From assembly GCF_009663775.1 (NCBI RefSeq), contig NZ_RDBR01000023.1, forward strand, positions 1 to 35,429: a stretch of 35,429 nucleotides of DNA, read 5' to 3'. The position numbers and the translations under genes are program-made. This document shows, one piece after another, positions 3,739-23,380 of this stretch. Below the pieces are notes generated by a model. The model searched no databases and was not told the DNA's origin. It saw only the letters and a list, made by a program, of their open reading frames with translations. Origin of the DNA: Lactobacillus sp. 0.1XD8-4. Its GTDB lineage: Bacteria; Bacillota; Bacilli; Lactobacillales; Lactobacillaceae. Numbering within the stretch: the stretch's first letter is position 1; every line of letters begins with the position of its first letter.

Positions 3739-4309
3739 CTTCGTGCACCTCCATTTTAATACATGAACCGATAAGCGACCGTGTAATTCGGATTAGTTGG
3801 ATATACGGGTTGTCACCATCAGTTACTGCATTTTTTAATAAAGTATAAGTACCATCTTCAATTACGCTTAAAACTAGCTGAATATCTTGACGCCGCGGAT
3901 CGTTAAGGTAGTCACCGTATGCTAAAAACTCTAATAATAATGGTAAATAATCCGATAGCTCGCTAGTTGCCTCTGAAACACCAAACATTTCATACAATAC
4001 CTTTAATCGTGCCAGAATTGTACCACGTTCCCGTGAATCAGTCATTTTATAATATGACATATACAAGGTATAGCGCCGATTCATTTCAAAAAGGTGGGTA
4101 TACATTTCTTGACGTTCAATTGATGGTAAGCTTGCTAACTCATCAAATAAACTCAGAATCTCGCCACGGGTTGCTGTCGATAGGGCCTGATCGTGGACAA
4201 CTTGTTGACGTAGTTCGTCAGAAAATGTCTCTTTATCAGGATAGTCGATTAACCATGCAAGAATTACAAATGTATTTTTTAAGGTAGTCAATCTTTCAAA
4301 ATCAATCAC
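3731..4309 (-). CDS. narJ: Nitrate reductase delta chain, NarG maturation chaperone
   Basis: A 192-residue, mostly helical cytoplasmic protein of the NarJ/TorD-like chaperone family, which holds apo-NarG during molybdenum cofactor insertion and is not part of the final enzyme. Its place between narH and narI is the canonical order. The start is set at GTG 4309: GGAGG lies 8 nt upstream, and the GTG overlaps the narH stop as GTGATTGA. A longer in-frame ATG at 4339 lies inside narH and lacks a ribosome site. The protein is shorter than the roughly 236-residue E. coli protein, mainly at the C-terminus. Confidence 0.9.
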   Translation of the reverse strand: MIDFERLTTLKNTFVILAWLIDYPDKETFSDELRQQVVHDQALSTATRGEILSLFDELASLPSIERQEMYTHLFEMNRRYTLYMSYYKMTDSRERGTILARLKVLYEMFGVSEATSELSDYLPLLLEFLAYGDYLNDPRRQDIQLVLSVIEDGTYTLLKNAVTDGDNPYIQLIRITRSLIGSCIKMEVHEDA

Positions 4310-9516: not shown

Positions 9517-9576
9517 CGTTGATTGACCTCCCTTATTTATTAAGCTGCTTTAATTGCTGTTATTAAAGTAAGCCTT

Positions 9577-9614
9577 TTCCCTAATGTAAAGATTATCATC
9601 ATTCCTGCTATACT
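9577..9614 (+). promoter_or_regulatory. Promoter of the cofactor operon with TTCCCTAAT box
   Basis: TTCCCTAAT (9577-9585) stands 23 bp upstream of a TATACT -10 element (9609-9614); there is no good -35 hexamer. The same arrangement occurs at three other promoters in the window. The half-site CCCTA matches one arm of the TAGGG-N4-CCCTA palindrome described for staphylococcal NreC, so NreC-type activation is inferred. Confidence 0.6.
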
Positions 9615-9626
9615 ACGACTAGGGAA
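9590..9626 (-). promoter_or_regulatory. narG promoter with TTCCCTAGT box
   Basis: Read on the minus strand, TTCCCTAGT (9626-9618) is followed after 22 bp by TAATCT (9595-9590) as -10. The geometry matches the divergent promoter at 9577-9614. The two promoters interlock, so each box covers the expected transcription start of the other. Confidence 0.55.
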
Positions 9627-9663
9627 ATACCTATATTTTTAATTGAATGAGGTGCTAATGGAC

Positions 9664-10683
9664 ATGAACCGTTATGATCGTCAAGAAAGGGTCTACCAAA
9701 TTGGGCAGGCAGGTCAAGAAAAAATTAGTCAAGCTACAATTATGATCGTGGGAACTGGTGCATTGGGAAGCTATGCTGCTGAGCAACTTGTGCGCGCTGG
9801 TGTCAGAAGCCTAATTCTTGTTGACCCTGACACTGTCGAGATTACTAATCTGCAACGACAAGCCCTTTTTACTGAAGAAGATGCCAATCAAGCGCGTTTG
9901 AAAGCAGAGGCATTAAGGGATCACTTAACTAAAATTAATTCTAATTGCCGCATCACAGCAATTCCTGCGCCGCTTACCCCTGATATTATTGATGATTACT
10001 CTTTTAATTTATGTCTAGACTGCCTTGATAATTATCATGCTCGCGATTTATTAAACAAACTATCACTAACAGCTAAGTTTGATTATATCTTTGCTAGTTG
10101 TGCTGGTACCTATGGAAATGTTATGCCTATTTCAGCAACCACGCATCCTTGTCTAAATTGTCTCTTTCCTAATCTTAATGACCTATTGGAAAATGATTGT
10201 GACCTAATCGGGGTCAATACGGCCTTAGTTCCCCTAGTTGCAGGTCTTCAAGTTTCTTTAGCCCTCCATTATCTTATCGATAAGGCAAGTCTTAATTTTA
10301 ATGAATTGATTACGGTTGATAACTGGTCGATGGCGTTTATGAAATTTAAGGTTAATAAAAATCCCCAATGCCCTAGTTGTTCAATCCCTAAGCAAAACTA
10401 CCAAGATACTGAACCATTATCAGGGCTCCATATGCTTTGCGGTGAGAACGCTTATTATACAGTTAACGAAAAGGCGGTTAGTTTTACTCATCTTCATGAA
10501 TTACTGACAGAAAAACATGTTCCCCTGAAAACAAATCGCATGTTTCTGCACTTTAAATGGCAAAACCGACCGGTAAGTATTTTTAAAAATGGTAAGATTA
10601 TTATGTATAACTTGCCTAATAGTAAGGCAGCCCAACAGCAATTACGGTCATTAGACCAATTAATGAAAGAAGATGTACAATGA
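9664..10683 (+). CDS. moeB: MoeB/ThiF-type adenylyltransferase (molybdopterin synthase activation)
   Basis: A 339-residue E1-like enzyme expected to adenylate the C-terminal Gly-Gly of MoaD so that it can be loaded with sulfur. The ATP-binding GTGALG is at residues 30-35, followed by DPDTVEITNLQRQ, typical of MoeB/ThiF. Zinc-binding pairs CLNC (163-166) and CPSC (236-239) are present. The roughly 90-residue C-terminal extension is absent from the 249-residue E. coli MoeB and resembles the small tail domain of many Firmicute ThiF proteins; it is not a rhodanese domain. The ATG at 9664 is chosen because GAGGTG (9649-9654) is 9 nt away; ATG 9658 is only 3 nt from it. ThiF is the alternative, but the neighbours favour a molybdenum role. 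Confidence 0.85.
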   Translation: MNRYDRQERVYQIGQAGQEKISQATIMIVGTGALGSYAAEQLVRAGVRSLILVDPDTVEITNLQRQALFTEEDANQARLKAEALRDHLTKINSNCRITAIPAPLTPDIIDDYSFNLCLDCLDNYHARDLLNKLSLTAKFDYIFASCAGTYGNVMPISATTHPCLNCLFPNLNDLLENDCDLIGVNTALVPLVAGLQVSLALHYLIDKASLNFNELITVDNWSMAFMKFKVNKNPQCPSCSIPKQNYQDTEPLSGLHMLCGENAYYTVNEKAVSFTHLHELLTEKHVPLKTNRMFLHFKWQNRPVSIFKNGKIIMYNLPNSKAAQQQLRSLDQLMKEDVQ

Positions 10684-11177
10684 AAAAAGTTGCAATTTTA
10701 ACAATTAGCGATAGCCGGACATTAGAAACTGATAAATCCGGAAAGTTTATTACCGAAAAATTAACCAAGGCAGGGTTAGTAATCACTACTCGCATAGTTG
10801 TTAATGATGATCTTGTTAATATTCAAGCTGCCTACCTCCAGCTGGAACAACAAGCACCGGATATTATTATCACAAATGGGGGAACTGGCATTGCTCATCG
10901 CGATGTTACAATTCCAGCGATTACCCCTCTCTTGAAACGTCTTCTTCCTGGATTCGGTGAAGCTTTTCGGCAAATCTCATTTGAAGAAATCGGTACCCGA
11001 GCATTGGCTTCTCAAGCACTTGCCGGTTTTAATTACCGTTATCAACTCACCTATTGTCTACCAGGCTCACAAAATGCTTGTCAAACAGCGTTAGATAAAC
11101 TTATCATCCCTGAATATGAACACTTATTATTTGAAAGCAGTCCTCAACGAAAGGAAGTTCACCACCATGCTCACTAG
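10680..11177 (+). CDS. moaB: Molybdopterin adenylyltransferase-type protein MoaB/MogA
   Basis: A 165-residue cytoplasmic protein of the MoaB/Mog fold that adenylates molybdopterin before metal insertion. The family signatures are TISDSRT at 8-14, NGGTG at 66-70 followed by RD-V-T (Asp75), and PGS at 128-130. It overlaps the preceding gene by 4 nt (ATGA) and the following moeA by 11 nt, so it is part of a coupled operon. Length fits MoaB. MoaB and MogA cannot be separated from sequence inspection alone; Firmicutes usually carry MoaB. Confidence 0.9.
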   Translation: MKKVAILTISDSRTLETDKSGKFITEKLTKAGLVITTRIVVNDDLVNIQAAYLQLEQQAPDIIITNGGTGIAHRDVTIPAITPLLKRLLPGFGEAFRQISFEEIGTRALASQALAGFNYRYQLTYCLPGSQNACQTALDKLIIPEYEHLLFESSPQRKEVHHHAH

Positions 11178-12384
11178 AAGAACCCCCATCTCGGTTGCTG
11201 AAGCCCAAAAGAGAATTAATGAAATTACACTTACAACGTCTACGGAAATAATCCCTCTTACTGAAGCAAATCATCGTGTAATAGCAACAGATGTATATGC
11301 TCCTTATGACTATCCACATTTTCGGCGAGCTGGAATGGATGGTTATGCAATTTTGTCAAGCGATGACCATGATTATCCACGCGAATTTACTGTACTAGGC
11401 GAGATTCAAGCAGGTGCAACTTGGGACCAGCCCCTCCACCCTGGAGAAGCTGTTCGGATCATGACTGGGGCGTATGTTCCAAAAGATGCAGAAAAAGTAA
11501 TTCGAATTGAAAAAACACGTCCTAGTGCAGACAAGCAAAAAGTAACGATTATTACGAGTGAAAGCAAGAGTAATATCACAGAAACAGGCACTGACGTTAA
11601 GAAAGGTGAAATCGTTTTAGCAAAGGATCAAGAATTAAATCCTGGGGGGCTAGCTGTTCTAACTGCCTTTGGCATCCAACAGGTTACTGTTTATAAAAAG
11701 CCGCGCATTGCAATAATTGCAACGGGAACCGAACTGCTTGGTCCCCATGACCCAATTGCTGCAGGTAAAATTTTTAATAGTAATGGTATTATGCTTAAAA
11801 ACTTGGTTGAAGAAAGCGGCGGTATTGTTGACTTTGAGACCCAGTTACCAGACGAGGCTAATGTTATTAAAGAGACATTAGAAAAGCAAATGGCTTCCCA
11901 CGATATTGTTATTACTGATGGTGGTGTTTCTGTTGGTGATTTCGATTATATTGGGGATGAAGCACGCAAGGCAGACCAGCTTCTGTTCAACAAAATCAAA
12001 CAACGGCCCGGTAGCGTAACTACTGCTTTTGTCCAACACAAGACACTTGTAATGGCTCTTTCGGGAAATCCTGGAGCTTGCTTTACTGGTTTTTATTTAT
12101 ATATGGAACCGTTAATTCGTCGTTATCAGCACCAGCCTAGCCGCCTTCGCAAAGTACGGGCAACTTTAGCGGCACCCTATAATAAGACGAATGGGTTTGA
12201 TCGTTATCTCCGTTGCACCTATGAATTTAAAAACAATCACTTTCTAGTTTATCCAAACGGAATTAACCGTTCCGGGTCATTAGCTAACTTGCAGACAACA
12301 AACTGCTTAGCGCTTATTCCTCATAGTACAACACCTATGAAAGTGGGAACGGAGACAGATGCATGGCTACTACCCTTCAAATAA
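11167..12384 (+). CDS. moeA: Molybdopterin molybdenumtransferase
   Basis: A 405-residue enzyme that inserts molybdate into adenylated molybdopterin. It contains the N-terminal MDGYA motif (57-61), a central MoaB-like domain with DGGVSVGD, and SGNPG at 299-303, all typical of MoeA, whose usual length is about 410. The start is ATG 11167, preceded by AAGGAAG and overlapping the moaB stop. An in-frame ATG at 11116 lies further inside moaB without a ribosome site. The 3' end overlaps mobB by 22 nt. Confidence 0.93.
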   Translation: MLTRRTPISVAEAQKRINEITLTTSTEIIPLTEANHRVIATDVYAPYDYPHFRRAGMDGYAILSSDDHDYPREFTVLGEIQAGATWDQPLHPGEAVRIMTGAYVPKDAEKVIRIEKTRPSADKQKVTIITSESKSNITETGTDVKKGEIVLAKDQELNPGGLAVLTAFGIQQVTVYKKPRIAIIATGTELLGPHDPIAAGKIFNSNGIMLKNLVEESGGIVDFETQLPDEANVIKETLEKQMASHDIVITDGGVSVGDFDYIGDEARKADQLLFNKIKQRPGSVTTAFVQHKTLVMALSGNPGACFTGFYLYMEPLIRRYQHQPSRLRKVRATLAAPYNKTNGFDRYLRCTYEFKNNHFLVYPNGINRSGSLANLQTTNCLALIPHSTTPMKVGTETDAWLLPFK

Positions 12385-12851
12385 TCGGCCATAAAAAGAG
12401 TGGCAAAACCTTAATTACAACAGCTTTGATTAAAAGATTAACGCAAGCAGGATATCGCGTTGCTGCAATTAAACATGATGCTCATAATGCTGCTATGGAT
12501 GTTCCTCATACTGACAGTGCTCGTATGAGTGGTGCAGGAGCTCACCAGGTCATCCTCCAGTCAGCGTCAGACTTCTTTTTTCACCAACAAGGAAATGTCC
12601 CCCCATTATCATCATTAGTTGAATGGTTGGGAAAAGATAACGACTTTGTCCTAATTGAAGGTCATAAACAAGCACATTATCCTAAACTGGTTTTACTTAA
12701 ACCCGGAGAAGAAGTAAACAGCATCACTAGTAGTCAACCAATTCAAACTGGCAGCATCTTTAACACCCATAATGCAAATTTACGCGGTAAAGATGAGATT
12801 ATTAACTGGTGCTTTACTTTTTTAGAACATGCCAAAGGAGTAAAGAAGTAA
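12363..12851 (+). CDS. mobB: Molybdopterin-guanine dinucleotide biosynthesis adaptor MobB
   Basis: A 162-residue GTP-binding protein assisting MobA in forming the guanine dinucleotide cofactor. The P-loop GHKKSGKT is at residues 9-16, followed by IKHDAHN near residue 37 and DFVLIEGHK near 100, all typical of MobB. It starts inside the end of moeA and stops exactly one base before mobA, so it is translated from a polycistronic message. Confidence 0.92.
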   Translation: MATTLQIIGHKKSGKTLITTALIKRLTQAGYRVAAIKHDAHNAAMDVPHTDSARMSGAGAHQVILQSASDFFFHQQGNVPPLSSLVEWLGKDNDFVLIEGHKQAHYPKLVLLKPGEEVNSITSSQPIQTGSIFNTHNANLRGKDEIINWCFTFLEHAKGVKK

Positions 12852-13424
12852 ATGATTGGAATTATCTATGCTGGCGGACAATCGAAGCGGTTTGGCCAAG
12901 ATAAAGCGTTATTTAAAGTACCAAAGTTAGCAGCACCAAATGTCCAAATCGCTGCAGAAAACTTGCAAGCTATATGTGCAAAAGTAATCGTATGTGCAAA
13001 CGAAAAAAACCAAGTACAGATAAAACAACGCTTATTATCCATGAACAATATTCAAGTTATCACTGATTTGCCTGCGTTTTCCCAGCATGGTCCCCTTTCA
13101 GCAATTGTTGCTTGTACAGCGCAATTTAAAGGGACCCACGATTTTATTACGTTGGCGGCTGATTATCCGTATATTACATCCAAAACGCTTCAGCGCTTAG
13201 CTCAAAAGCCTTTTTCTTATATCAGTACCAGTAACCACGATCATTATACCCTTGCGCACTTTTCGATTAGCCATGAAGCGGTTATGGCCTGGTTGTTAGC
13301 TGAAAACAATTGGCGATTAGGAGACTTTTTAATCAAAAAATGTGGCTGTAGGTCCCTTGACTGCAATACAAATGATGAATTCTTAAATTTAAATTACTGG
13401 GAGGTCGATACAAATGAAAAATAA
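12852..13424 (+). CDS. mobA: Molybdenum cofactor guanylyltransferase
   Basis: A 190-residue nucleotidyltransferase that attaches GMP to molybdopterin, giving the MGD form used by NarG. The N-terminal nucleotide-binding signature AGGQSKRFGQDK is at residues 7-18, and ADYPY near residue 105 matches the metal-binding D-x-P region of the family. Length fits MobA. The start follows the mobB stop directly, with AAAGGAG 11 nt upstream. The 3' end overlaps the next small gene by 11 nt. Confidence 0.92.
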   Translation: MIGIIYAGGQSKRFGQDKALFKVPKLAAPNVQIAAENLQAICAKVIVCANEKNQVQIKQRLLSMNNIQVITDLPAFSQHGPLSAIVACTAQFKGTHDFITLAADYPYITSKTLQRLAQKPFSYISTSNHDHYTLAHFSISHEAVMAWLLAENNWRLGDFLIKKCGCRSLDCNTNDEFLNLNYWEVDTNEK

Positions 13425-13698
13425 AGATTTGATGACAGAAGCAGATTTTCAAAAACTAATCGCACTCGTTTTAAATGATTTAGCGATTAGACGGACGATG
13501 CTTGAAAATCGGGAGCAAGAAGTACAGCAACAGTTAAGCTCATTAGAGCGCGATGCAGAATTGGAGCAGCTTGACGATCAAATTCAACAAGTGCAAGCAG
13601 ATTTTGATCATTACCACGAGTTTACTGATCCTCGCTTCGATTTTAATGCTCACCAATATTTTCAAGGGCCTTCAATGGGGTTGCCGAAACATCCATAA
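13414..13698 (+). CDS. Small coiled-coil protein of unknown function
   Basis: A 94-residue, acidic, Gln/Glu-rich protein. Residues 25-70 have a heptad-like pattern suggesting a coiled coil; the tail is rich in Phe, His and Pro. I do not recognise the family. GGAGG is 9 nt upstream of the ATG, and the gene overlaps mobA, so it is cotranscribed with the cofactor genes and ends at the terminator at 13701-13755. It occupies the slot just before the two-component genes where staphylococci have nreA, but it is far too short for a GAF-domain NreA and shows no similarity to one. Confidence 0.75.
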   Translation: MKNKDLMTEADFQKLIALVLNDLAIRRTMLENREQEVQQQLSSLERDAELEQLDDQIQQVQADFDHYHEFTDPRFDFNAHQYFQGPSMGLPKHP

Positions 13699-13700
13699 GC

Positions 13701-13755
13701 TACAGAGACCAGCAATAATGTATTTACAAGTTGCTCGTCTCTGTATTTTTATTTA
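13701..13755 (+). terminator. Terminator of the molybdenum cofactor operon
   Basis: TACAGAGAC (13701-13709) pairs with GTCTCTGTA (13737-13745), and AGCAA (13711-13715) with TTGCT (13731-13735), with one C-C mismatch. ATTTTTATTT follows. It separates the cofactor operon from nreBC. Confidence 0.85.
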
Positions 13756-13788
13756 AGCCAAAGCAAAGTTATAGTGACTTATCAAATG

Positions 13789-13817
13789 TTGCGCTCCAGT
13801 TAAGAAAGCGTTATTAT
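13789..13817 (+). promoter_or_regulatory. Candidate promoter of nreBC
   Basis: TTGCGC is followed after 17 bp by TATTAT, about 70 bp upstream of the histidine kinase start. No TTCCCTAAT box is present, so the regulator genes look constitutively expressed. Confidence 0.45.
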
Positions 13818-13885
13818 ATAAAATAGGAATATTTGAAGTATTAATTTCTTAATTTTAGTGTTTGCTAATTGAGGAGGAGTCTGCA

Positions 13886-14929
13886 TTGCTAGAAACAGCT
13901 AACTGGGTACAAACATATTTTAACCAATCACCAGATGCGATTTTTTTATTCAAAAATGACGATTTACTGGTAAGCAACCAACCTGCTCAACAACTAATTG
14001 CAAGTCTTAAATTAAACGTGGATTACCTCTTGCGGATGGGAAAAAATGCTTGGTCACAACACGAAAAAGATAATTGTGCATCGTGTCTTATTAAAGGTCG
14101 CTTAAATAGGGCAACTATTCCCGTTGTTTTTAACCAGGATTCCCCCCACCCATTTCATTTTTCTTTAATATATCAACCATTAAGCGCTAGTCAAAATATT
14201 ATTGCCCTAACACTTGAAAATCGTGAGCAGCAACAACGAATCTCTCAGGTTGAGCAGCAGCGAATTCTGAATCAATATATAAGTGAAGCCCACGAAAAAG
14301 AACGGCAGAAAATATCGCAAGATCTCCATGATAGTATTGCCCAAGAAGTTTATTCTGCCATTATTGGTGTGCATCGGCTTGCCACACAACCTAATTGTGA
14401 TTCGCAACGGGTGCAAAAAATTAGCACGGCGGTTGAAAAGCAATTACGGGCTACCCTTATGGAAATCAAAAACATGGCATTAAATATTCGGCCCTCCGTT
14501 CTTGATAACTTTGGCCTAATTCCAGCTATTAAGGGACTTGCTAAGCGCGTACAAGCAAGTACTGGGATTAGAATCAATGTTGTCGCCTTAACTTCTGCAG
14601 ATAACTTATCAGCTAATGTGCAAAACGTGCTTTATCGAATTAGCCAAGAAGCAATCAACAATGCCGTTAAACATGCCAATCCAACTGAAATAAATATAAT
14701 TATGACTAACCACCATAATTACATCAAATTAGAGGTTTTAGACAACGGTACTGGTTTTGACAGTAATTACCAAGCTAGTTTTAATGGCCATTCACTCGGG
14801 TTGATGAATATGAATGAACGGGTAAAAGCATATAATGGTGCATTTATTATTACATCAAAAATTAATAAGGGAACAACAGTTAAAGTTGAATTCCCTTATA
14901 ACAATTTGAATAAGGATCAGGTGAAATAG
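13886..14929 (+). CDS. nreB: NreB-type sensor histidine kinase
   Basis: A 347-residue cytoplasmic kinase without membrane segments. Order: PAS-like sensor (about 1-115), coiled linker, HisKA_3 box with QDLHDSIAQ (His148), then HATPase with NNAVKHA and DNGTGFD. This is the layout of staphylococcal NreB, the oxygen-sensing [4Fe-4S] kinase that controls nitrate respiration. Only two sensor cysteines are present (C64-x2-C67); the second CxxC of the four-ligand staphylococcal sensor is missing, so cluster binding may differ. The start is TTG 13886, set by GAGGAGGAG at 13871-13879; the earlier TTG 13862 lies upstream of that site. nreC follows directly. Confidence 0.85.
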   Translation: MLETANWVQTYFNQSPDAIFLFKNDDLLVSNQPAQQLIASLKLNVDYLLRMGKNAWSQHEKDNCASCLIKGRLNRATIPVVFNQDSPHPFHFSLIYQPLSASQNIIALTLENREQQQRISQVEQQRILNQYISEAHEKERQKISQDLHDSIAQEVYSAIIGVHRLATQPNCDSQRVQKISTAVEKQLRATLMEIKNMALNIRPSVLDNFGLIPAIKGLAKRVQASTGIRINVVALTSADNLSANVQNVLYRISQEAINNAVKHANPTEINIIMTNHHNYIKLEVLDNGTGFDSNYQASFNGHSLGLMNMNERVKAYNGAFIITSKINKGTTVKVEFPYNNLNKDQVK

Positions 14930-15583
14930 ATGTATAATGTTTTAGTTGCAGACGATCACGCAATTGTCCGTTCGGGAATTTCATATTTAGTTGACCTACA
15001 ACCCAATTTTACGGTAGTAGATGGAACTGCTAGCGGTACTGATACATATATGAGGATTGAACAAGGCGACATTGATATTTTAATTATGGATCTTAGTATG
15101 CCACCGGGTGAAAATGGGTTACTTACCACCCAACGAATTCATGATAAGTTTCCGCAAGTACGAATTATCATTCTTTCAATGCATGAGGAGCAGGAATATA
15201 TTAATAAGGCGATGGCTAATGGTGCAATGTCATATGTCCTTAAAAGTTCGCCAGATACCGAGATCATTAAAGCCCTTCAGCATGTTATTAATGGCGAGAA
15301 CTACCTTGACACCAATATTATTGTCAGTAAAAACGACCTTAAAAAAATCAATGCTTCTGGTAATAACCTTAACCTAGAGGGGTATAATAGCCTTTCAAAA
15401 CGCGAAAAAGAAGTCTTCCCGCTAATTGCACTTGGTTATTCTAATAAGGAAATTTCGCAAAAAATGTTTATCTCAACTAAAACTGTTGAAGCCCATAAAG
15501 CTAATATATCGCGCAAACTTCATCTTCATGGGCGGGTCGAGCTAGTCCAGTATGCGATTCACCATCACTTAATTGATTTTTAA
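14930..15583 (+). CDS. nreC: NreC-type response regulator (NarL/LuxR family)
   Basis: A 217-residue DNA-binding regulator. The receiver domain (1-120) has the acidic pair Asp8/Asp9, phosphoacceptor Asp54 (MDLSMP) and a Lys in YVLKSS. A LuxR-type helix-turn-helix covers about 150-215 (LSKREKEV ... STKTVEAHKANISRKL). The ATG follows the kinase stop directly, so the pair is coupled. It probably activates the nitrate reductase, cofactor and transporter promoters through the TTCCCTAAT boxes; this is inferred from the match of CCCTA to the NreC half-site and from position. A terminator follows. Confidence 0.88.
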   Translation: MYNVLVADDHAIVRSGISYLVDLQPNFTVVDGTASGTDTYMRIEQGDIDILIMDLSMPPGENGLLTTQRIHDKFPQVRIIILSMHEEQEYINKAMANGAMSYVLKSSPDTEIIKALQHVINGENYLDTNIIVSKNDLKKINASGNNLNLEGYNSLSKREKEVFPLIALGYSNKEISQKMFISTKTVEAHKANISRKLHLHGRVELVQYAIHHHLIDF

Positions 15584-15588
15584 ACTAA

Positions 15589-15628
15589 CGGGGAATCCTT
15601 GAAATAAGAGGAATCCCCGATTTTATTT
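15589..15628 (+). terminator. Terminator after nreC
   Basis: CGGGGAATCC (15589-15598) pairs with GGAATCCCCG (15610-15619) with one A-A mismatch, followed by TTTTATTT (15621-15628). Confidence 0.75.
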
Positions 15629-15676
15629 GTAGGTAAAATTTCTTAAAATAAAGCATGAATATGAGGAGGCATTTTT

Positions 15677-15949
15677 ATGACAACAAATCTAAGCCGTAAC
15701 GATGAACTGCGAGGGGTTCTTAGCGATATTGTCCGGAAACGATTTATTAATAGTCGGCAAGTTAACCCCGTCTCAAATCTCTTTTTAACGACTAAGTATG
15801 CAGTGGATCATGGGTATATTACTGGTGCAATCCTTGACGAAACATTTAGTAGTACCTTAGCAGAACTAAATTTAAAAAATGCAACTTTGACAAAACAGGG
15901 TCACCGTAAGCTTGCTGAATTAATTAATCAGCACACAAAGGAGAATTAA
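15677..15949 (+). CDS. Small protein, possible winged-helix (YjcQ-like)
   Basis: A 90-residue soluble protein. The second half, with YITGAILDE and then NLKNATLTKQGHRKL, recalls the YjcQ-like small winged-helix pattern in which an LTxxG segment forms the wing. That similarity is by eye and weak. GAGGAGG lies 7 nt upstream of the ATG. It is the first of three tightly packed genes (2-nt and 4-nt gaps) following nreBC, so the three proteins probably act together. If it is a winged helix, it may regulate or scaffold the operon. Confidence 0.65.
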   Translation: MTTNLSRNDELRGVLSDIVRKRFINSRQVNPVSNLFLTTKYAVDHGYITGAILDETFSSTLAELNLKNATLTKQGHRKLAELINQHTKEN

Positions 15950-15951
15950 TA

Positions 15952-16920
15952 ATGGATGCTCAGGACAAATTAAAACGCGAATATGAAAATAAGTCGATTT
16001 ATACAGCAGGCTTTTATGCTGATCCAGATAATGACCTCCAAAACCGCCAGAAGCTGTTTGACACATTGAAATCCCTAGTGATGAATCAAGAAGCTGATAC
16101 TCCGTTTGCCCTTCAAATCATGCTGACTAATAGTGAAATCAATATAATGCCACTAGGATTAGTAAACTTGGATGAATTAAAGGAATATGAAAGTAAAAAG
16201 CGAGTAACGCATGGTTTGCAAAATCAAAATGACTCTTTACCACTTGTTATTCAATATTCTCCTCATACGGATGGCGGAAAGATTATAAAGAAAATGGTTG
16301 GCTCCGTCCAAGAACTATTCACTAATTTTAACCAACAAATTGAAATAATTTGGCAAACAGTAAAAGAATTGATGCAAGCTAATTTTGTAACTTTGACAGC
16401 TATCGAAAATGACTTAATCGCCGATAGTCATGATGTATGCAAAGAATATCTTGCTACCTTTTCCAAAATGACATCTACGGAACTAAAAGAGCAACTTGGA
16501 TTTAGGATTGCTAAAGACGAGCTAGCGCAATTTTCGGCCTATATGGCTGATATGCATGAGGTTCAAGCGATTGTCCTTTCATCAGGATCATTTGTTAACC
16601 GCGAATTGCTAGAAAAGAATTCTTTTACGACAATGATGAGCGATAACATCCGTCGTAGTACCCTCTTTTGGGTCTTGGATAATACCTTCTATGAAATTTA
16701 CTATTACTTTTATATGAGTAATAGTAACGAAAAGCTCCATAAAAGGCTACAACATTTACGGCAAGACTTAATAGTCAATATGCGTAATGATGCCTTTCAC
16801 CGTGCTCAAGAAATGACTGCCAAGCAATCACAAAATGTCAATTTTAGTGAGTATTTCACTGATATTTTTATTCCCGTAGCTGAACAAATTATTGCAGAAA
16901 TAAACAAATTCAAGGATTAG
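15952..16920 (+). CDS. Hypothetical protein, 322 residues
   Basis: I do not recognise this family. It is soluble, without signal peptide or membrane helices; the N-terminal ~110 residues look mixed alpha/beta and the rest largely helical. Aromatic-rich stretches occur around residues 240-260 (FWVLDNTFYEIYYYFYMS). It is translated with an AAAGGAG site immediately after the 90-residue gene and is followed 4 nt later by the polyprenyl-synthetase-like gene. Its position in the nitrate respiration cluster is the only clue to function. Confidence 0.8.
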   Translation: MDAQDKLKREYENKSIYTAGFYADPDNDLQNRQKLFDTLKSLVMNQEADTPFALQIMLTNSEINIMPLGLVNLDELKEYESKKRVTHGLQNQNDSLPLVIQYSPHTDGGKIIKKMVGSVQELFTNFNQQIEIIWQTVKELMQANFVTLTAIENDLIADSHDVCKEYLATFSKMTSTELKEQLGFRIAKDELAQFSAYMADMHEVQAIVLSSGSFVNRELLEKNSFTTMMSDNIRRSTLFWVLDNTFYEIYYYFYMSNSNEKLHKRLQHLRQDLIVNMRNDAFHRAQEMTAKQSQNVNFSEYFTDIFIPVAEQIIAEINKFKD

Positions 16921-16924
16921 GATA

Positions 16925-17824
16925 ATGCAACTAACACCAGATGAACGATTAACAAGTGCCCTCCCGATCCTTATTAAGCAGTTTCCACCAATGATCCGTT
17001 CGATGATTGATTTAACTCCTAACAACAGCGAACGAAAAATTCGTTTGTTAGTTTTCGAAGCCATTAGTCATTTAACGCCCAAAGAATTGACGGTTGATCA
17101 AATTACTGCTGCACAGCTACCAGAGTTACTCGCCCTGGCAGTGGAACTTAACCCGCCTGCTTTTCAACCCGCCAGGTTAACACCCAATACGCTTGCGGAA
17201 CAAAAAGCATTTTCATATTGTGCAGTCTATCTAATGAATCGTTTCGTCAGCGGGCTGAATATGGTCGGGAATTCACCACAAATTATTGAAGAGCTGACAA
17301 CTGACGCAGGCGACATAATGATGGCGCAAATTCAGCGGCTTCGCTTTAACTACAATCAGCATTTTAGGATCACAGACTACTTGGCTGATATTAAAGCGCG
17401 CCAAGGAATCCTTGCGGCAATCACTGCTAAACAGAGTGCGGTTTTCAGTAGTACGAGTTCGGAAATAATGGCCCTTGCTAGCCAAATAGGACAATCAATT
17501 GGTACTATTAGCGCTATTATTCACGAATGTCGGCAACTAAAAGCGGATAAAACTTGGTTTATTAGCAATATTACTGCGGGTCAATATCCGTTGGCGCTTC
17601 TTTTTGCCCGCGAAACCTCTCCCGACTGGTTTAATAACTTCTTTGGGCACCCTCACCGCCCTTCTTTGGAACGGTTTGATCAAGCTTATCGGCTAACGTT
17701 AGCACATTTTAATGACGTTAACCAAATTGTTGATGACATTAAAGCCCAATTGATGCTGGACGTCAAAATATTACCCAGCAATCGGGTACAAAAGGAGTTA
17801 ATTAGTTTAATAAATAGTATCTAA
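16925..17824 (+). CDS. Degenerate polyprenyl synthetase-like protein
   Basis: A 299-residue, mostly helical soluble protein. The region from about 115 to 230 lines up by eye with trans-isoprenyl diphosphate synthases: AGDIMMAQIQRLRF for the AGD helix, then DYLADIKARQGILAAITA for the YLEIIRxKTA helix, then GQYPLALLFARE for the EGKxTLPLxxAL segment. Both Asp-rich metal-binding motifs are missing: the first is replaced around FVSGLNMVGNS and the second (FQIVDD) by SAIIHECRQL. It is therefore unlikely to be a catalyst alone. It could be a regulatory or small subunit of a heteromeric prenyl synthase, a quinone-related helper, or an unrelated helical protein. Last gene of its operon, ending at the structured repeat 17828-17906. 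Confidence 0.75.
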   Translation: MQLTPDERLTSALPILIKQFPPMIRSMIDLTPNNSERKIRLLVFEAISHLTPKELTVDQITAAQLPELLALAVELNPPAFQPARLTPNTLAEQKAFSYCAVYLMNRFVSGLNMVGNSPQIIEELTTDAGDIMMAQIQRLRFNYNQHFRITDYLADIKARQGILAAITAKQSAVFSSTSSEIMALASQIGQSIGTISAIIHECRQLKADKTWFISNITAGQYPLALLFARETSPDWFNNFFGHPHRPSLERFDQAYRLTLAHFNDVNQIVDDIKAQLMLDVKILPSNRVQKELISLINSI

Positions 17825-17825
17825 A

Positions 17826-17906
17826 AAGGCTCTAGTATTCGGAAAAACCGAACGCTAGAGCCTTCTTTATATTTGTAAGGGCGTGAGGACGAATAATAAG
17901 CACTCC
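17826..17906. repeat. Structured terminator-like repeat, copy 1
   Basis: The hairpin GGCTCTAG...CTAGAGCC with an AAAAA loop spans 17828-17862, with A/T flanks that make it a bidirectional terminator between the converging unknown gene and narK. The homology to the copy at 24870-24948 extends about 45 bp beyond the hairpin, to the shared ending AGCACTCC, so this is a dispersed repeat rather than a simple terminator. Confidence 0.7.
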
Positions 17907-17984
17907 GTAACGTGTTACATCAGTCTTGCTTAAACCGCCTTGTCGAGGAGGTTATTTCCCCTTTCTCTATCACGCGTTTTAATA

Positions 17985-19178
17985 TTATTTAACAATATGA
18001 ACATCCCCGTGAATATAATGCTTCCACAAGGCAAACCAACAAATCAATCCGGTTAAGGCTAAAAGTGCAATCCCGAGTTCATAGCTGCCGGTCCATTGGT
18101 AAATATAACCAATAATTAATGGTGGGAAGAAACCGCCTAAACCACCGACAGCTCCCACAAAACCAGTAACCGCGCCAGTATTCCCCTTTGATACATACGG
18201 AACCATCTTAAAGACAACCCCGTTACCAATACCAGCTGAAAGACCGACTAATACAATTCCGGCAATAAACATATACTCATTATGAAAACTTAACATAATC
18301 CATATGGCGAAAATAACAATAGCAATAAATACCCATTGTAATAATGTCATTGGCCGTTTTTTATCGGCCAAGTATCCACCTACTGGCCGTACTAAAGTAC
18401 ATACAAAGGCAAACAAGGCGGAATAAAGCCCAGCAGTAACAGGAGAATAATGAAACATCCCCGTTAAAAAGGTTGGCGTTAAATTGGTAAAAGCAACAAA
18501 CAAGCCGAATGTTAAGAAGTAAAACAAAGAAAGATACCATGTTCCACTATCTTTTGCAACAGCTAACGCACCACCAATGGTTTTGCTCTTATCTACCGGC
18601 ATCTCTTTACAAAAAATTGCAAAGAGCACACCAAAGATAATAGTTAGGATAATTAAAAAGTAATAAACGCTATCAAAGCCCGCTGCTTTAGAAATGTAAG
18701 GAAGAGTCATTGCCGCTACAGCATTCCCCATATTCCCCATTGAAACAATTCCTAATGCTAAACCTTGTTGCTCAGGCGGGAACCATACTGAAGCATATGA
18801 AACCCCGACTGCAAACGATGTTCCTGACATTCCGACTAGCAGCGCGGCAAATAGTAACATGCCAAATGAATGAACACGCGGAATCATAATCAGTGGAATT
18901 AAGATAAAAGCCATCAAAATAAGATAAACCTTTTTACCACCGTAGCGATCGCTTAATATTCCCACCGGTATCCGCATAATTGATCCCAATAATACTGGTG
19001 TTGCCAGCAGTAGGGTACGTTGCGACACATCCAAGTCAAACATCTGTGCAACTTGGGATGCAAGTGGGGCAAAGTTCGACCATGACATAAAACATACAAT
19101 CATTGCTAACGTGGAAAGAGTTAATGCAGTATACGCATTGCGTCGACTTCCATGAGCAACATCCTTAACACTTGACAT
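17985..19178 (-). CDS. narK: Nitrate/nitrite transporter (MFS, NarK family)
   Basis: A 397-residue membrane protein with about 12 hydrophobic helices. An arginine in the helix-2 region (GSIMRIPVGILSDRYGG) fits the nitrate-binding Arg of NarK, and two glycine-rich nitrate-signature-like stretches, SAGIGNGVVFKMVP and GAVGGLGGFFPP, are present. It should import nitrate and may export nitrite in exchange. The start is ATG 19178: GGAGGAGG is 8 nt upstream, whereas TTG 19184 is only 2 nt from it. Only about 50 bp separate it from moaD, so moaE-moaD-narK may be one transcript ending at the repeat 17826-17906. Confidence 0.93.
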   Translation of the reverse strand: MSSVKDVAHGSRRNAYTALTLSTLAMIVCFMSWSNFAPLASQVAQMFDLDVSQRTLLLATPVLLGSIMRIPVGILSDRYGGKKVYLILMAFILIPLIMIPRVHSFGMLLFAALLVGMSGTSFAVGVSYASVWFPPEQQGLALGIVSMGNMGNAVAAMTLPYISKAAGFDSVYYFLIILTIIFGVLFAIFCKEMPVDKSKTIGGALAVAKDSGTWYLSLFYFLTFGLFVAFTNLTPTFLTGMFHYSPVTAGLYSALFAFVCTLVRPVGGYLADKKRPMTLLQWVFIAIVIFAIWIMLSFHNEYMFIAGIVLVGLSAGIGNGVVFKMVPYVSKGNTGAVTGFVGAVGGLGGFFPPLIIGYIYQWTGSYELGIALLALTGLICWFALWKHYIHGDVHIVK

Positions 19179-19228
19179 AATCAAGTCCTCCTCCTGTAAA
19201 ATATTCAGTTTTCCCTGAGAAGCAGTGA

Positions 19229-19474
19229 CTATCCACCACTAACTGGTGGAATGATTGCTACTTCATCATTTGCGGTTAAGCTGACTTCATCCCTATCGAT
19301 AAATTCTTGGTTAATTGCTAACCGTGAATTAGCCAAGGTTGTCGTAAGCTGCGGTGCAAGTTGACTAACTTGTTTTAGAATATCCGTCACGCGAATAGGA
19401 TTAGTAACCTCAACTGTAACAACTGGCCCTAATTGGTCTTGTAAAAATGCAAACAGTTTAACTTTGATTTTCAT
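19229..19474 (-). CDS. moaD: Molybdopterin synthase sulfur carrier subunit
   Basis: An 81-residue ubiquitin-fold protein ending in VSGG; the terminal Gly-Gly is the point of adenylation and thiocarboxylation by the MoeB-like enzyme. It pairs with MoaE, encoded immediately upstream, as molybdopterin synthase. ATG 19474 overlaps the moaE stop (TAATG), with AGGTGGGG 6 nt upstream. A GTG at 19486 would add four residues but overlaps the ribosome site. Confidence 0.92.
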   Translation of the reverse strand: MKIKVKLFAFLQDQLGPVVTVEVTNPIRVTDILKQVSQLAPQLTTTLANSRLAINQEFIDRDEVSLTANDEVAIIPPVSGG

Positions 19475-19875
19475 TAGTTTCCCCACCTAACCTTATCCGT
19501 ATCATATTCTTTTTTCCAAATAGGCACTTCCCGCTTTAATGTATCAATAATATATTGACACCATTTAAATGCTTCTGCCCGGTGTGGAGCGGCTACTCCC
19601 ACAAAGACTGCGATGTCTGATAGACCTAATTGACCAGTTCGATGCGCTACGACTACCCGCCCGCCTTGCTTTTCAATCGGCATTGCAATTTTTTCAAGTT
19701 GTTTTTCTGCCATTGGCTGATAAGCGGAATATTCTATTTTGGTAGTTTCAATCTTTCCGGTCCACTGCCGAACGGTGCCAACAAACATATCAATCCCCCC
19801 ATATTGTGGATCAACAAGACGTTGGTATAGGTCAGCGATATCAATAGGCTCATCACTTATCCGTAAATAATGCAA
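19474..19875 (-). CDS. moaE: Molybdopterin synthase catalytic subunit
   Basis: A 133-residue protein that transfers sulfur from MoaD to cPMP to make molybdopterin. Signature segments AHRTG (77-81), APHR (96-99), FKWCQYIIDTLKREVP with Lys114, and IWKKE with Lys121/122 match the MoaE active site. The start is TTG 19875, with GGCGGGTG upstream. It heads the moaE-moaD-narK unit and is divergent from the flavodoxin gene. The cPMP-producing genes moaA and moaC are not in the window. Confidence 0.93.
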   Translation of the reverse strand: MHYLRISDEPIDIADLYQRLVDPQYGGIDMFVGTVRQWTGKIETTKIEYSAYQPMAEKQLEKIAMPIEKQGGRVVVAHRTGQLGLSDIAVFVGVAAPHRAEAFKWCQYIIDTLKREVPIWKKEYDTDKVRWGN

Positions 19876-19939
19876 TAATAATCACCCGCCTTTAACAGTG
19901 TTATTATTACAGATAATATTATTATTTAGAATTAGTTAA

Positions 19940-19976
19940 TTCCCTAATAATCTCATCCTTATTATGTTGCTATACT
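19940..19976 (+). promoter_or_regulatory. Promoter of flavodoxin-permease operon with TTCCCTAAT box
   Basis: TTCCCTAAT (19940-19948) is 22 bp upstream of TATACT (19971-19976). The -10 sequence and the geometry match the moeB-like promoter. The same box might also serve the divergent moaE promoter in the inverted orientation, but no matching geometry is seen there. Confidence 0.6.
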
Positions 19977-20003
19977 ACTAACTAAGTGAGAGGATTAACG
20001 AAT

Positions 20004-20444
20004 ATGAACAAATTAATCATTTATGATACGATTTATGGACATAATTTTGAATTAAGCAAATTTATCCATGACCAATTACTGCCTGAAGCAAGTCTGATTT
20101 CTTTTAAGGAATTTTCGCCGACAATGTTGAGCAATCATGATTTTCTGATTCTTTGCCCTTGCACATACGGTGAAGGAGAATTAACAGCGAATGAACAAGT
20201 AGTTTATGACCATTTGTCTAACCGTTCGTTATCACATCTTACCTACTATCTTGCGGGGATTGGGGATCGCAACTTTGGGCAAGAGAGGTTTGCTAATGCG
20301 GTGAATATTTTTGATAAATTGCTTCGCCAGCGTCAAGCAGTTCCGATTGCACCATCACTAAAAGCAGATTATGAGGATATAGCAAAAGCTCACCAACAAA
20401 TTACGAGAATATTAAAGGAAGCAAGTAGAAAGAAGCGATCATAA
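20004..20444 (+). CDS. Flavodoxin-like protein
   Basis: A 146-residue FMN-binding fold. The N-terminal YDTIYGHN takes the place of the phosphate loop (usually TxTGNT), CPCTYGEGEL at about 53-62 is the second FMN loop, and GIGDRNFGQERF (about 86-97) the third. It likely carries electrons in the cytoplasm. GAGAGGA precedes ATG 20004; an in-frame GTG at 19986 lies upstream of that site. It is the first gene of an operon with a FecCD-type permease and ATPase behind a TTCCCTAAT promoter. It may reduce an imported metal or heme complex, or serve as a redox partner; the sequence does not decide. Confidence 0.82.
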   Translation: MNKLIIYDTIYGHNFELSKFIHDQLLPEASLISFKEFSPTMLSNHDFLILCPCTYGEGELTANEQVVYDHLSNRSLSHLTYYLAGIGDRNFGQERFANAVNIFDKLLRQRQAVPIAPSLKADYEDIAKAHQQITRILKEASRKKRS

Positions 20445-20470
20445 TCACAAATCATCATTATCGAATAACA

Positions 20471-21439
20471 ATGTGCGGGATAGTTTGCCTAGTTTTAATT
20501 GCTATAATTTTTGCCCTATCTTGTGGACGAATTTATTATTCGCCATCAGAACTTTTACAAACGTTAGTTCATCCCCAAAGCAATCCAGTAGCTGCCAATG
20601 TAATTTTTAACATCCGCTTACCACGAATTATTGGAGCACTCCTAGTTGGTGCTAGCCTTGCAATGGCTGGCTGTTCATTTCAAAATGTTTTTCATAATCC
20701 GCTTGTTTCGCCGGATATTCTCGGTGTTTCCTATGGAGCTGCAGGAGGAGCTGCAATGGCGATATTATTGGGATATGGACTTGGGGGGACCCAAGCATTA
20801 GCATTTATCGGCGGAATAATCGCAGTTGGTCTAACAGTCGCATTAGCTAGAATTATTCATCAAAAAGGTACTTTAATTCTTATATTAGCAGGGATTGTTA
20901 TTTCCGGCTTCATGCAAGCACTAATTGGTCTTTTGAAATATACAGCTGATCCTGATTCCCAATTGCCAAGTATTGTCTATTGGCAATTGGGAAGCTTAGC
21001 AAAGGTTGATTTCTCAAATATTATTGCTATCCTCCCCTTGTTAATTATTGGCACTATCGCTTTAATTGTTCTTCGGTGGCACCTAACTGTCCTATCGCTG
21101 GGGGACCAGCAGGCACAGCTAGAAGGAATAAATATTGGGCTAGAACGACTTTTTATTATTATTGCTAGTACCTTTCTAACTGCTGGTACGGTATGCTTGA
21201 GTGGTAATGTGGGATGGGTTGGATTAGTTATTCCTCATATTGCACGGCTTCTTGTTGGCGATAATGCACAAAGGACTCTTCCATTGTCTGCTTTTCTCGG
21301 TGCTCTTTTTCTTCTTATTGTCGACACTTTTGCACGCTCGCTTTCTGTTGGTGAAATTCCGCTTAGTATCCTAACCGGTTTTATCGGCACGCCGCTCTTT
21401 GTCTATATTCTTATAAAAAAGAAGGTTCGATTAAATTGA
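20471..21439 (+). CDS. FecCD-type ABC transporter permease
   Basis: A 322-residue membrane protein with about nine or ten helices and the family signatures RLPRIIGALLVGASLAMAG near residue 52 and NPLVSPDILGVSYGAA near 76. This family imports siderophores, heme, cobalamin and, in the MolBCA type, molybdate or tungstate. The first helix looks short: the only standard start is ATG 20471, no clear ribosome site precedes it, and no other ATG/GTG/TTG exists between the upstream in-frame stop and that ATG. The ATPase start overlaps its stop. The cofactor setting favours molybdate; heme is also plausible because NarI needs it. Confidence 0.88.
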   Translation: MCGIVCLVLIAIIFALSCGRIYYSPSELLQTLVHPQSNPVAANVIFNIRLPRIIGALLVGASLAMAGCSFQNVFHNPLVSPDILGVSYGAAGGAAMAILLGYGLGGTQALAFIGGIIAVGLTVALARIIHQKGTLILILAGIVISGFMQALIGLLKYTADPDSQLPSIVYWQLGSLAKVDFSNIIAILPLLIIGTIALIVLRWHLTVLSLGDQQAQLEGINIGLERLFIIIASTFLTAGTVCLSGNVGWVGLVIPHIARLLVGDNAQRTLPLSAFLGALFLLIVDTFARSLSVGEIPLSILTGFIGTPLFVYILIKKKVRLN

Positions 21440-22212
21440 ATATTCTTAATGTTCATCAACTAGCATTTTCATATTCTCCGTCCAAAACTGTCTTAAAAAA
21501 GATAAGCTTTTCTCTTAGGGCAGGCGAAGTTTTTACTATTCTCGGACCTAATGGTATTGGTAAATCAACCTTACTTCATTGTTTACTGGGAATCCTGCCG
21601 GTTAACCAAGGAAGAATCGAAGTTGCCGGCAAAGACATCCAGACCGTGAACCAACGTTTTCTTGCTCAACAGGTAGCTTATGTGCCACAGGATTACCATG
21701 TGAATTCAAGTATAGCTGTTATTGACTATTTATTAACGGGACGTACCCCTTACCTGTCACTTTTTCAGACACCCCAACATAAGGACATAATGCTTGCCGA
21801 AAAATACCTTAAGGAGTTTAAGCTAATAGCTTTGCGCGATCGTTCTTTTTCATCTCTTAGTGGTGGTCAGCAACAATTAATCGCAATTATCCGCGCTCTT
21901 TTGCAACAGCCACAACTGCTAATTCTCGATGAACCAATGGCGGCGCTTGATTTAAGTCGACAGTATGAATTATTACAACTAATAAAGAAATTAAATCGCC
22001 AACAAATTGCGGTTATCCTTACAACTCACCTACCAGATCATGCATTAATGCTACAAGCAAAAGTTGGTCTCTTAAACCTTAACGGCACGCTGGAAGTTGG
22101 TAATAGTGCCCAACTACTAACAAAAGAAAAGCTTGAAGACCTTTATCAAGTTCCCTTGGATCTCGAGTATATGCCTAATCTTCACCGTTACACTTGTCAA
22201 ATAAAACTATAA
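21436..22212 (+). CDS. FecE-type ABC transporter ATPase
   Basis: A 258-residue ATPase. Walker A GPNGIGKST is at residues 37-45, Q-loop in YVPQ (83-86), signature LSGGQ at 142-146, Walker B LLILDE at 162-167 and H-loop His199. The TGRTPYL segment at about 102-108 is typical of FecE/BtuD-like iron-complex ATPases. The start is TTG 21436 overlapping the permease stop, with GAAGG 10 nt upstream. It energises the preceding permease. A bidirectional terminator follows, with the binding protein gene converging. Confidence 0.92.
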   Translation: MNILNVHQLAFSYSPSKTVLKKISFSLRAGEVFTILGPNGIGKSTLLHCLLGILPVNQGRIEVAGKDIQTVNQRFLAQQVAYVPQDYHVNSSIAVIDYLLTGRTPYLSLFQTPQHKDIMLAEKYLKEFKLIALRDRSFSSLSGGQQQLIAIIRALLQQPQLLILDEPMAALDLSRQYELLQLIKKLNRQQIAVILTTHLPDHALMLQAKVGLLNLNGTLEVGNSAQLLTKEKLEDLYQVPLDLEYMPNLHRYTCQIKL

Positions 22213-22257
22213 AAAGCATGGCGATTGAGCAATTCTCAACCTACCATGCTTTTAATT
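22212..22257. terminator. Bidirectional terminator between the ATPase and binding-protein genes
   Basis: AAAAGCATGG (22212-22221) pairs exactly with CCATGCTTTT (22244-22253), with an inner TTGAG/CTCAA stem. A- and T-runs on both sides serve both converging genes. Confidence 0.85.
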
Positions 22258-23268
22258 TCGACTGGCTAATATCTGCTTAGCTTGTTGTGGTGTTAAGTTA
22301 TAGTGATAATATTTTTGATAAAATTTTTGAACTTCAGTAACCATATCAATATCTTTCATTTCTCGGGGATGTAAAACCTTAGCAGCCCATAATACTTGTA
22401 ATGCTTCTTCAGCACTATAACGATCCCACGGAAAGGTTCCCTGCGGATTACCGTATACCTTATCTTGACGAACCGCCCTTAGTTGACATAGTTGTTTATT
22501 GGCTTTTAATGCCTTTCTCGCTTGTGTTGAAGTTGTGCTGCCGACAATAATTACATCAGGGTTTGCTTTCACAATTTCTTCAGTAGTTATTGAAATCTGA
22601 TTTCCCTTTTTGGTAACTACATTTTTACCACCAGCGATTTTTATCCATTCATCAACAATTGTCCCCTTACCGTCAACCTTAGTAAGATCAGTAGCATTAA
22701 CAATATGAAGAACCGTTGGGGTCGCGGTTCGAGTCTTTAGCTTATGTTTAACTAATTCAATATTTGTCGTTAAATCTTTATTATACTGGCGACCGATTCG
22801 GGGCGCATCCCCGCCTAAGATCGTTGCCGTCAAAGTAACTGATTTTTTTAAACCATTAAAGTCACTGTACATGGCGTTAGCAGTTGGCAATTTTGCTTGG
22901 CGTGCTTCTTTTACCTGCCCTGGATCAGCTGCAATTACGACATCAGGATGGCTCTTAATCAATTCTTCTTGTTGTATCTGGTTACCCACTAATGGCGCCT
23001 TTACCTTTTTAATGCTTGGATCAACAATTGTAAACCAGTATTGTTTTTTTATAATTGGTGTTGTCGCAACAATCTTCTTTTGCCCGCCTAGCAGCAAAAC
23101 AACTTGGTTATTCGCGTGCCATAAATCTGCAACACGATCAACTTTTGTAGGAATTTTTACTTCATGACCAGCCATGTCTTCAACAGTCCGGGTCGCACTC
23201 GCCAGGACTGGAGAAGAAAGGCTGCCGAATAATAAATTAAGACCTAATACAATTAATAATTTTTTCAT
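22252..23268 (-). CDS. FecB/BtuF-type periplasmic-binding-fold protein
   Basis: A 338-residue substrate-binding protein of the metal-chelate class. An N-terminal Sec signal (about 1-24, ending VLASA) is followed by VEDMAGHEVKIP, typical of the family, then HPDVVIAAD and NPDVIIVG in the two lobes. There is no lipobox cysteine, which is unusual for a Gram-positive binding protein; it may be secreted or held by its uncleaved signal. It converges on the permease-ATPase genes and so has its own promoter. The inverted repeat at 23314-23334 overlaps that promoter. Ligand unknown: molybdate/tungstate, heme, cobalamin or ferric chelate are possible. Confidence 0.85.
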   Translation of the reverse strand: MKKLLIVLGLNLLFGSLSSPVLASATRTVEDMAGHEVKIPTKVDRVADLWHANNQVVLLLGGQKKIVATTPIIKKQYWFTIVDPSIKKVKAPLVGNQIQQEELIKSHPDVVIAADPGQVKEARQAKLPTANAMYSDFNGLKKSVTLTATILGGDAPRIGRQYNKDLTTNIELVKHKLKTRTATPTVLHIVNATDLTKVDGKGTIVDEWIKIAGGKNVVTKKGNQISITTEEIVKANPDVIIVGSTTSTQARKALKANKQLCQLRAVRQDKVYGNPQGTFPWDRYSAEEALQVLWAAKVLHPREMKDIDMVTEVQKFYQKYYHYNLTPQQAKQILASRN

Positions 23269-23299
23269 CTTTATCTCCCTCTATGCTCACAACGATACT

Positions 23300-23334
23300 A
23301 TTATAAACAAATTTCACTAAGATTAAATTAGTGA
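23300..23334 (-). promoter_or_regulatory. Promoter of the binding-protein gene with inverted-repeat operator
   Basis: On the minus strand TATAAT (23305-23300) is preceded after 16 bp by TTTAAT. The perfect inverted repeat TCACTAA-N7-TTAGTGA (23314-23334) covers the -35 element, the place for a repressor. The regulator is not identified. Confidence 0.5.
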
Positions 23335-23344
23335 TTTTATCTAT

Positions 23345-23380
23345 TTCCCTAATATTTTTTGTTCTCAGTTTGACTATAAT
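23345..23380 (+). promoter_or_regulatory. Promoter of the unknown gene pair with TTCCCTAAT box
   Basis: TTCCCTAAT (23345-23353) is 21 bp upstream of TATAAT (23375-23380). It is the fourth member of the box set and the one that links unknown genes to the nitrate cluster. Confidence 0.6.

Follow-up and report, generated by a model that had tools for sequence, protein, structure and literature searches.

A conserved candidate NreC operator in the nitrate reductase island of Lactobacillus sp. 0.1XD8-4 and other Lactobacillaceae

We analysed a stretch of 35,429 nucleotides from Lactobacillus sp. 0.1XD8-4 (contig NZ_RDBR01000023.1, positions 1 to 35,429; hereafter the window) that carries an island with the nitrate reductase operon narGHJI, genes of molybdenum-cofactor synthesis and of transport, and a gene pair encoding an NreB-like histidine kinase and an NreC-like response regulator. 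A box TTCCCTART recurs in the promoters of this island. With a probability that we put at about 0.87, this box forms the more strongly conserved half of an operator for NreC, from which an NreC dimer would activate five operons by the class II mode. The assignment to NreC-type operators rests on the narG promoters: the exact dyad TAGG-N6-CCTA stands before narG in 34 of the 42 Lactobacillaceae genomes with narG and in all 15 genomes considered outside the family, with the -10 hexamer at 24 nt.

The dyad and its promoters in the window

The box is present four times in the window, at 9577-9585 (plus), 9618-9626 (minus), 19940-19948 (plus) and 23345-23353 (plus), and is followed by the hexamers TATACT, TAATCT, TATACT and TATAAT after 23, 22, 22 and 21 bp, respectively. 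These are exactly the boxes, hexamers and gaps given in a preliminary description of this DNA, and its statement that good -35 boxes are missing is also borne out: in each of five promoters, the best hexamer placed 15-19 bp from the -10 agrees with TTGACA at one to three of six positions. Taken alone, the word count is evidence of moderate weight, since four boxes were also reached in 2 of 100 shuffles of the window (mean count 0.71). The box followed by a properly spaced TATAMT has three matches in the whole genome (2,206,423 bases), every one of them inside the window (the narG box, with its -10 TAATCT, falls outside this pattern and is not counted); a reversed-pattern control gave one match. 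As the pattern was derived from the window sites themselves, its decisive test lies in other genomes.

An alignment of 45 sites, taken from the window and 20 other loci, together with reading of the five promoters, showed that the box is the better-conserved arm of a 14-bp dyad TAGG-N6-CCTA, with the box core as the right arm. The preliminary description had seen no full palindrome; the narG site is a complete one, and the other sites retain six or seven of the eight arm positions (Table 1). The dyad at 19940 serves in both directions. Beyond its other arm, again at 24 nt, lies the -10 of a fifth promoter, that of moaE-moaD-narK on the minus strand; the earlier list of downstream operons was correct in the four that it named and lacked this one. 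In nine related loci the distance between the moaE -10 and the dyad is 24 nt in eight and 25 nt in one, and all nine have the TGN extension. An extended -10 is present in four of the five window promoters, the exception being that of the gene encoding a 324-residue protein (324-aa gene).

The narG and moeB dyads are 50 bp apart (window 9570-9633) with both -10 hexamers in between, so that the two promoters are interlocked and probably exclude simultaneous occupancy by two polymerases. Overlapping opposite-strand pairs of sites, counted from the matches of our site model R1 (which was partly built from the same species as those searched), are found in 29 of the 42 genomes with narG.

Conservation in Lactobacillaceae

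The survey covered 397 Lactobacillaceae genomes, 42 with narG and 355 without it. The box with its -10 is present in 35 of the former and 34 of the latter (Fisher's test, 4e-24, uncorrected for kinship), and 49 of the 90 pattern sites in the genomes of the family are no more than 30 kb away from narG or nreC; thus the pattern proposed in the preliminary description is recovered in related genomes. It is also conserved in orthologous promoters. The exact dyad was found upstream of narG within 330 nt in 33 genomes and at 415 nt in one, and a further seven retain one arm, whereas in simulated sequence it occurs within 330 nt in a mean of 0.125 of 42. A count of the exact dyad in 31 loci (618,571 bases) gave 19 occurrences, of which 17 are, judged by their position, upstream of narG. 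The conservation spans several genera.

Other promoters of the island have conserved counterparts too. CCCTAAT upstream of the 324-aa gene is retained in six of six aligned rows, the window and five Limosilactobacillus loci. A moeB-type box is also seen in four Companilactobacillus loci, there ahead of a moaC-like gene (named by eye) that lies upstream of nreABC. In S. collinoides and S. paracollinoides, where the sequence examined around nreBC contains no narG, a moeB-type box survives before an apparently decayed mobA ahead of nreBC (L022:7733-7786 and L024:6820-6873).

The two shuffles that yielded four boxes might suggest a chance repeat of a short AT-rich word. This is hardly credible: the three genome-wide matches of box and -10 all fall within the island, the number of narG promoters with an exact dyad far exceeds the simulated one, and the dyad is kept both across genera and outside the family.

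narG promoters outside the family

The outside set comprises 15 of 16 genomes with NreA above the cut-off of its family model (G641 was left out); they are presumed to be Staphylococcus from the gene order narGHJI-nreABC and the NreA model. The exact TAGG-N6-CCTA lies upstream of narG in all 15, and TACAAT or TAAAAT (five of six -10 positions) follows exactly 24 nt past it. The 14-mer of the window's narG site is identical in two of these genomes (L140, L141). TAGGG-N4-CCCTA, which the preliminary description gave as the staphylococcal palindrome, is not found in exact form in any of the 15 promoters and is thus an idealised consensus; the sites there have the same asymmetric form as in the window, whose narG site agrees with TAGGG-N4-CCCTA in nine of ten positions. 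A binding mode different from the staphylococcal one, suggested earlier, was therefore rejected, as the narG dyad is complete and the presumed staphylococcal sites are equally asymmetric.

Two reviews describe the target of phosphorylated NreC at nar, nir and narT of Staphylococcus as a GC-rich palindrome (PMC8139620, PMC5694512); an NreB/NreC pair and a palindrome at nar operons are thus common to Staphylococcus and the window. The window differs in its predicted additional targets, moeB-mob-nreBC, moaED, the flavodoxin/FecCD transporter operon and the operon of unknown function, and on the sensing side, as discussed below. The enterobacterial NarX/NarL system is more distant. The window NreC belongs to the same class of response regulators and scores 120.5 bits with the NarL model of NCBIfam, but this is far below the cut-off of 250, and NarL binds a pair of heptamers, unlike the TAGG-N6-CCTA of the window. 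Other nar islands of Lactobacillaceae, e.g. that of Lactiplantibacillus plantarum, have a similar gene order and the same pair of boxes between narG and moeB. In the literature searched, which left most subscription papers outside, we recognised no NreC operator in lactobacilli and no NreC control of suf or feoB; as far as that literature goes, a conserved NreC operator and regulon in Lactobacillaceae have no prior description, although the kind is already known from Staphylococcus.

The site accompanies NreC

In the genome of Lactobacillus sp. 0.1XD8-4, R1 recognises all four sites of the window; its only other match is weak (E 0.02). At E<=1e-3 it has matches in 36 of the 42 genomes with narG and in none of the narG-free controls, of which 38 out of 42 chosen were searched. 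Two further sets were searched at similar stringency. Genomes that have NreC and no narG contain a site at E<=1e-3 in 11 cases of 25 (9 of 23 if the training genomes G282 and G308 are set aside), whereas none of the 39 genomes lacking an NreC match at E<=1e-60 reaches this level, and four reach E 0.01. Hence the site accompanies NreC, not narG. A promoter element universal in lactobacilli was rejected on the same zero of 39.

The position of the box near the -35 region and the four extended -10 hexamers could also fit core promoter DNA, an unusual -35 or an UP element acting without any activator; indeed, extended -10 promoters can work without a -35 box. Such an explanation is very improbable, given the dyad symmetry of the site, the two-way use of a single dyad with the same or almost the same distance on either side, and the co-occurrence with NreC.

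Several observations weigh against assignment of the sites to NreC. The genomes are related, and the counts are therefore not independent. At the looser threshold E<=0.05, R1 also matches 11 of the 38 controls, and 12 of the 25 narG-free genomes with NreC have no site at E<=0.01. Two of the 35 pattern-bearing genomes with narG (G003, G301) have a match only far from the nar genes, and the seven that retain the box arm alone all belong to one genus. Six genomes with both NreC and narG lack the pattern; their narG promoters carry a mirrored strong arm (TAGGG...CCTA). This mirrored form was seen in 12 Companilactobacillus-type or similarly diverged promoters, e.g. TAGGGAAAATCCTA, and its distance to the extended -10 is again exactly 24 nt. 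The single narG-containing genome with neither arm and no box, G028, has a best NreC match of 22% identity, which speaks for the assignment; yet it is only 91% complete, and its NreC may be unassembled. In the window itself, the dyads of moeB and of the 324-aa gene have imperfect left arms (6/8 overall), and the genome-wide E-value of the latter site, 0.01 with R1, is no better than those of four control matches (0.003-0.009). Finally, the genome encodes an NreC paralogue of 59% identity that could in principle bind the same sites.

Dyads between suf and feoB and the NreC paralogues

Nine of the narG-free regions with NreC were examined (G234 and G317, which have similar scores, were left out). 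Eight of them have the site in the sufC-feoB intergenic region, with an NreC-like gene close by; in the ninth (G304) it is elsewhere, 25 kb from the NreC gene. The sufC-feoB site is a near-symmetric dyad between the divergent suf and feoB genes (L088-L094, L096; e.g. L092:8713-8726), with a -10 at 24 nt on the feoB side in all eight and, on the suf side, at 24 nt in three and 25 nt in five. This arrangement suggests that an NreC paralogue controls iron-sulfur assembly and iron uptake from one two-way site. In a quick tree (midpoint-rooted, support values unread) the suf-linked NreC proteins form a branch of their own; those of S. collinoides and S. paracollinoides group with the nar-linked proteins, yet have suf genes nearby.

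The paralogue of Lactobacillus sp. 0.1XD8-4 is itself adjacent to suf genes (G000:C26:13455-14102; L050:4456-5109). It has no adjoining NreB match and is apparently an orphan. The exact dyad was not found in the 10 kb around it, a stretch that ends before sufC and feoB. In L. rudii, where both sufC and feoB are covered, there is likewise no exact dyad, and no NreB match stands beside the paralogue.

These data bear on the possibility that the box belongs to another regulator whose reach happens to include the nar island, be it an NreC paralogue or a global regulator of redox or catabolite responses. The paralogue of this genome has the same helix ISTKTVEAHKA, and the suf-linked paralogues of other genomes adjoin the same kind of dyad. 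As for global regulators, we take the box not to match CRP/FNR or CcpA sites. It is also unlike the Rex site TTGTGAA-W4-TTCACAA, as given in PMC2883068. Two narG-free genomes of the same genus whose NreC is only 53-56% identical (G045, G394) have no site; the paralogues of this genome and L. rudii lack both a neighbouring NreB match and an exact dyad in the sequence examined; and in genomes outside the family the dyad is found together with narGHJI-nreABC. Control by another regulator is thus improbable, and the nar-linked NreC remains the preferred binder.

A broader scheme is tentative, and we would not bet on it at even odds. Lactobacilli may carry two NreC branches with a common operator, one linked to nar, which would run nitrate respiration (in a reuteri-like subclade without NreA) with a sensor that has lost half of its cluster cysteines, and one linked to suf and feoB, NreBC being at root a switch responding to iron-sulfur clusters and oxygen or to iron status, and not to nitrate. 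If so, a single symmetric operator acting both ways would let the latter branch control the assembly of iron-sulfur clusters and the uptake of ferrous iron. The dyad between suf and feoB by itself suggests that lactobacilli have a regulator of iron-sulfur assembly that has so far gone unrecognised.

Predicted regulation and signals

NreB, the kinase encoded in the island, would phosphorylate NreC. A phosphorylated NreC dimer would bind TAGG-N6-CCTA-type dyads some 43 bp before the start site, immediately 5' of the -35 position. There it would recruit RNA polymerase by class II activation, the promoters lacking a good -35 box and, in four cases of five, having an extended -10. The predicted targets are narGHJI, moeB-mob-nreBC, moaED-narK, the flavodoxin/FecCD transporter operon and the two-gene operon of unknown function. 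The moeB-mob genes probably form one operon continuing into nreBC; since nreBC lies in it, NreC would regulate its own synthesis, and control of all five operons would therefore switch enzyme, cofactor, transport and regulator together. For lactobacilli this gives a concrete testable rule, TAGG-N6-CCTA followed after about 24 nt by a -10 without a -35, and it predicts five co-regulated operons that include genes of unknown function.

On the sensing side, no NreA was found in this genome either with a query sequence or with the NreA family model, whereas the same query matches 7 of 50 genomes of the genus. By reading, an NreA-like open reading frame precedes nreB in 21 of 30 lactobacillar NreB loci, and it is present in most related nar islands; that of locus L007 matches the NCBIfam NreA model with E 4e-26 but scores below its cut-off. 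It is lacking before nreB in the window (13698-13862), L. caviae, the L. reuteri WF-AA1-C record and L. rudii, as well as in five NreB loci with no narG in the sequence examined. All 30 lactobacillar NreB proteins read (the count leaves out L024, L033 and four diverged nar-linked NreB, L042-L045) have a single CxxC pair, whereas CxxC-X11-CxxC is seen in all 30 of the outside loci, which represent the best 30 among 72 genomes matching NreA. In staphylococcal-type NreB the two CxxC pairs serve as 4Fe-4S ligands. With NreA not found and one CxxC pair left, both the nitrate input through NreA and the oxygen input through a cluster-bearing sensor may work differently in lactobacilli.

The preliminary description had proposed a nitrate regulon under NreC. 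A conserved activator-type site at the nar and molybdenum-cofactor promoters stands, with NreC as its likely binder, as the site tracks NreC and matches that outside the family. As the search of this genome turned up no NreA, the nitrate receptor, nitrate is a possible signal at most, and the label of nitrate regulon rests on the genes. The absent NreA and the halved cysteine set make this lineage a natural test of nitrate and oxygen sensing by NreBC.

Genes of the island

Table 1. Genes and predicted regulatory features of the nar island (positions in the window; operator scores are matches in the eight arm positions, centres are relative to the predicted start site)
Feature	Position	Strand	Basis or remark
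narGHJI (narG 5851-9516, narH 4302-5861, narJ 3731-4339, narI 3046-3738)	3046..9516	-	named from translations; orthologues found
moeB/thiF-like, moaB, moeA, mobB, mobA, 94-aa gene	9643..13698	+	moeB/thiF family model; gene order; other names by reading
NreB-like histidine kinase, one CxxC pair	13862..14929	+	Pfam HisKA_3, HATPase_c; Cys count
NreC-like response regulator, receiver and LuxR-type HTH	14930..15583	+	Pfam; relatives
moaE-moaD-narK (moaE 19474-19875, moaD 19229-19486, narK 17985-19184)	17985..19875	-	moaE, moaD named by reading
Flavodoxin (fld), FecCD-type permease, ABC ATPase operon	19986..22212	+	family models; ATPase named by reading
Two unknown genes, 324 aa and 143 aa	23393..24808	+	no family match
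narG operator TAGG-TATTTC-CCTA, 8/8, centre -43.5	9620..9633	-	overlaps box 9618-9626; predicted operator
narG extended -10 TGA-TAATCT	9590..9598	-	TGNTANNNT at box-directed position in aligned narG rows; spacing
moeB operator AAGC-CTTTTC-CCTA, 6/8, centre -44.5	9570..9583	+	overlaps box 9577-9585; predicted operator
moeB extended -10 TGC-TATACT	9606..9614	+	promoter alignment, spacing
Two-way operator TAGT-TAATTC-CCTA, 7/8, centre -43.5 toward fld (+) and moaE-moaD-narK (-)	19933..19946	.	overlaps box 19940-19948; predicted operator
fld extended -10 TGC-TATACT	19968..19976	+	promoter alignment, spacing
moaE extended -10 TGT-AATAAT	19903..19911	-	24 nt from dyad; absent from preliminary description
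324-aa gene operator TATC-TATTTC-CCTA, 6/8, centre -42.5	23338..23351	+	overlaps box 23345-23353; predicted operator, weakest site
324-aa gene -10 TATAAT, not extended	23375..23380	+	sequence reading, spacing

The regulator is of the NarL type (a receiver and a LuxR-type helix-turn-helix domain, HTH) and is paired with a HisKA_3 kinase, both assigned by Pfam; it was the sole transcription regulator recognised when the island proteins were read. The NreC loci nearest to that of the window, in L. caviae, L. rudii and an L. reuteri record, are 89-91% identical, and we take the genome to be that of a gut Limosilactobacillus. NarK is the best NCBIfam match of the narK product, yet it falls below the cut-off of that model. 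The 324-aa and 143-aa genes have no Pfam match at E<=0.01 and no NCBIfam match at E<=0.001. A candidate NreC half-site was considered for the gene of the substrate-binding protein (22252-23268, minus), but inspection by eye found no -10 at the right distance from it. Three genes of unknown function lie 3' of nreC (15677-17824) and recur in many related nar islands; the last of them weakly matches the polyprenyl synthetase family (PF00348, 8.5e-5, below the cut-off).

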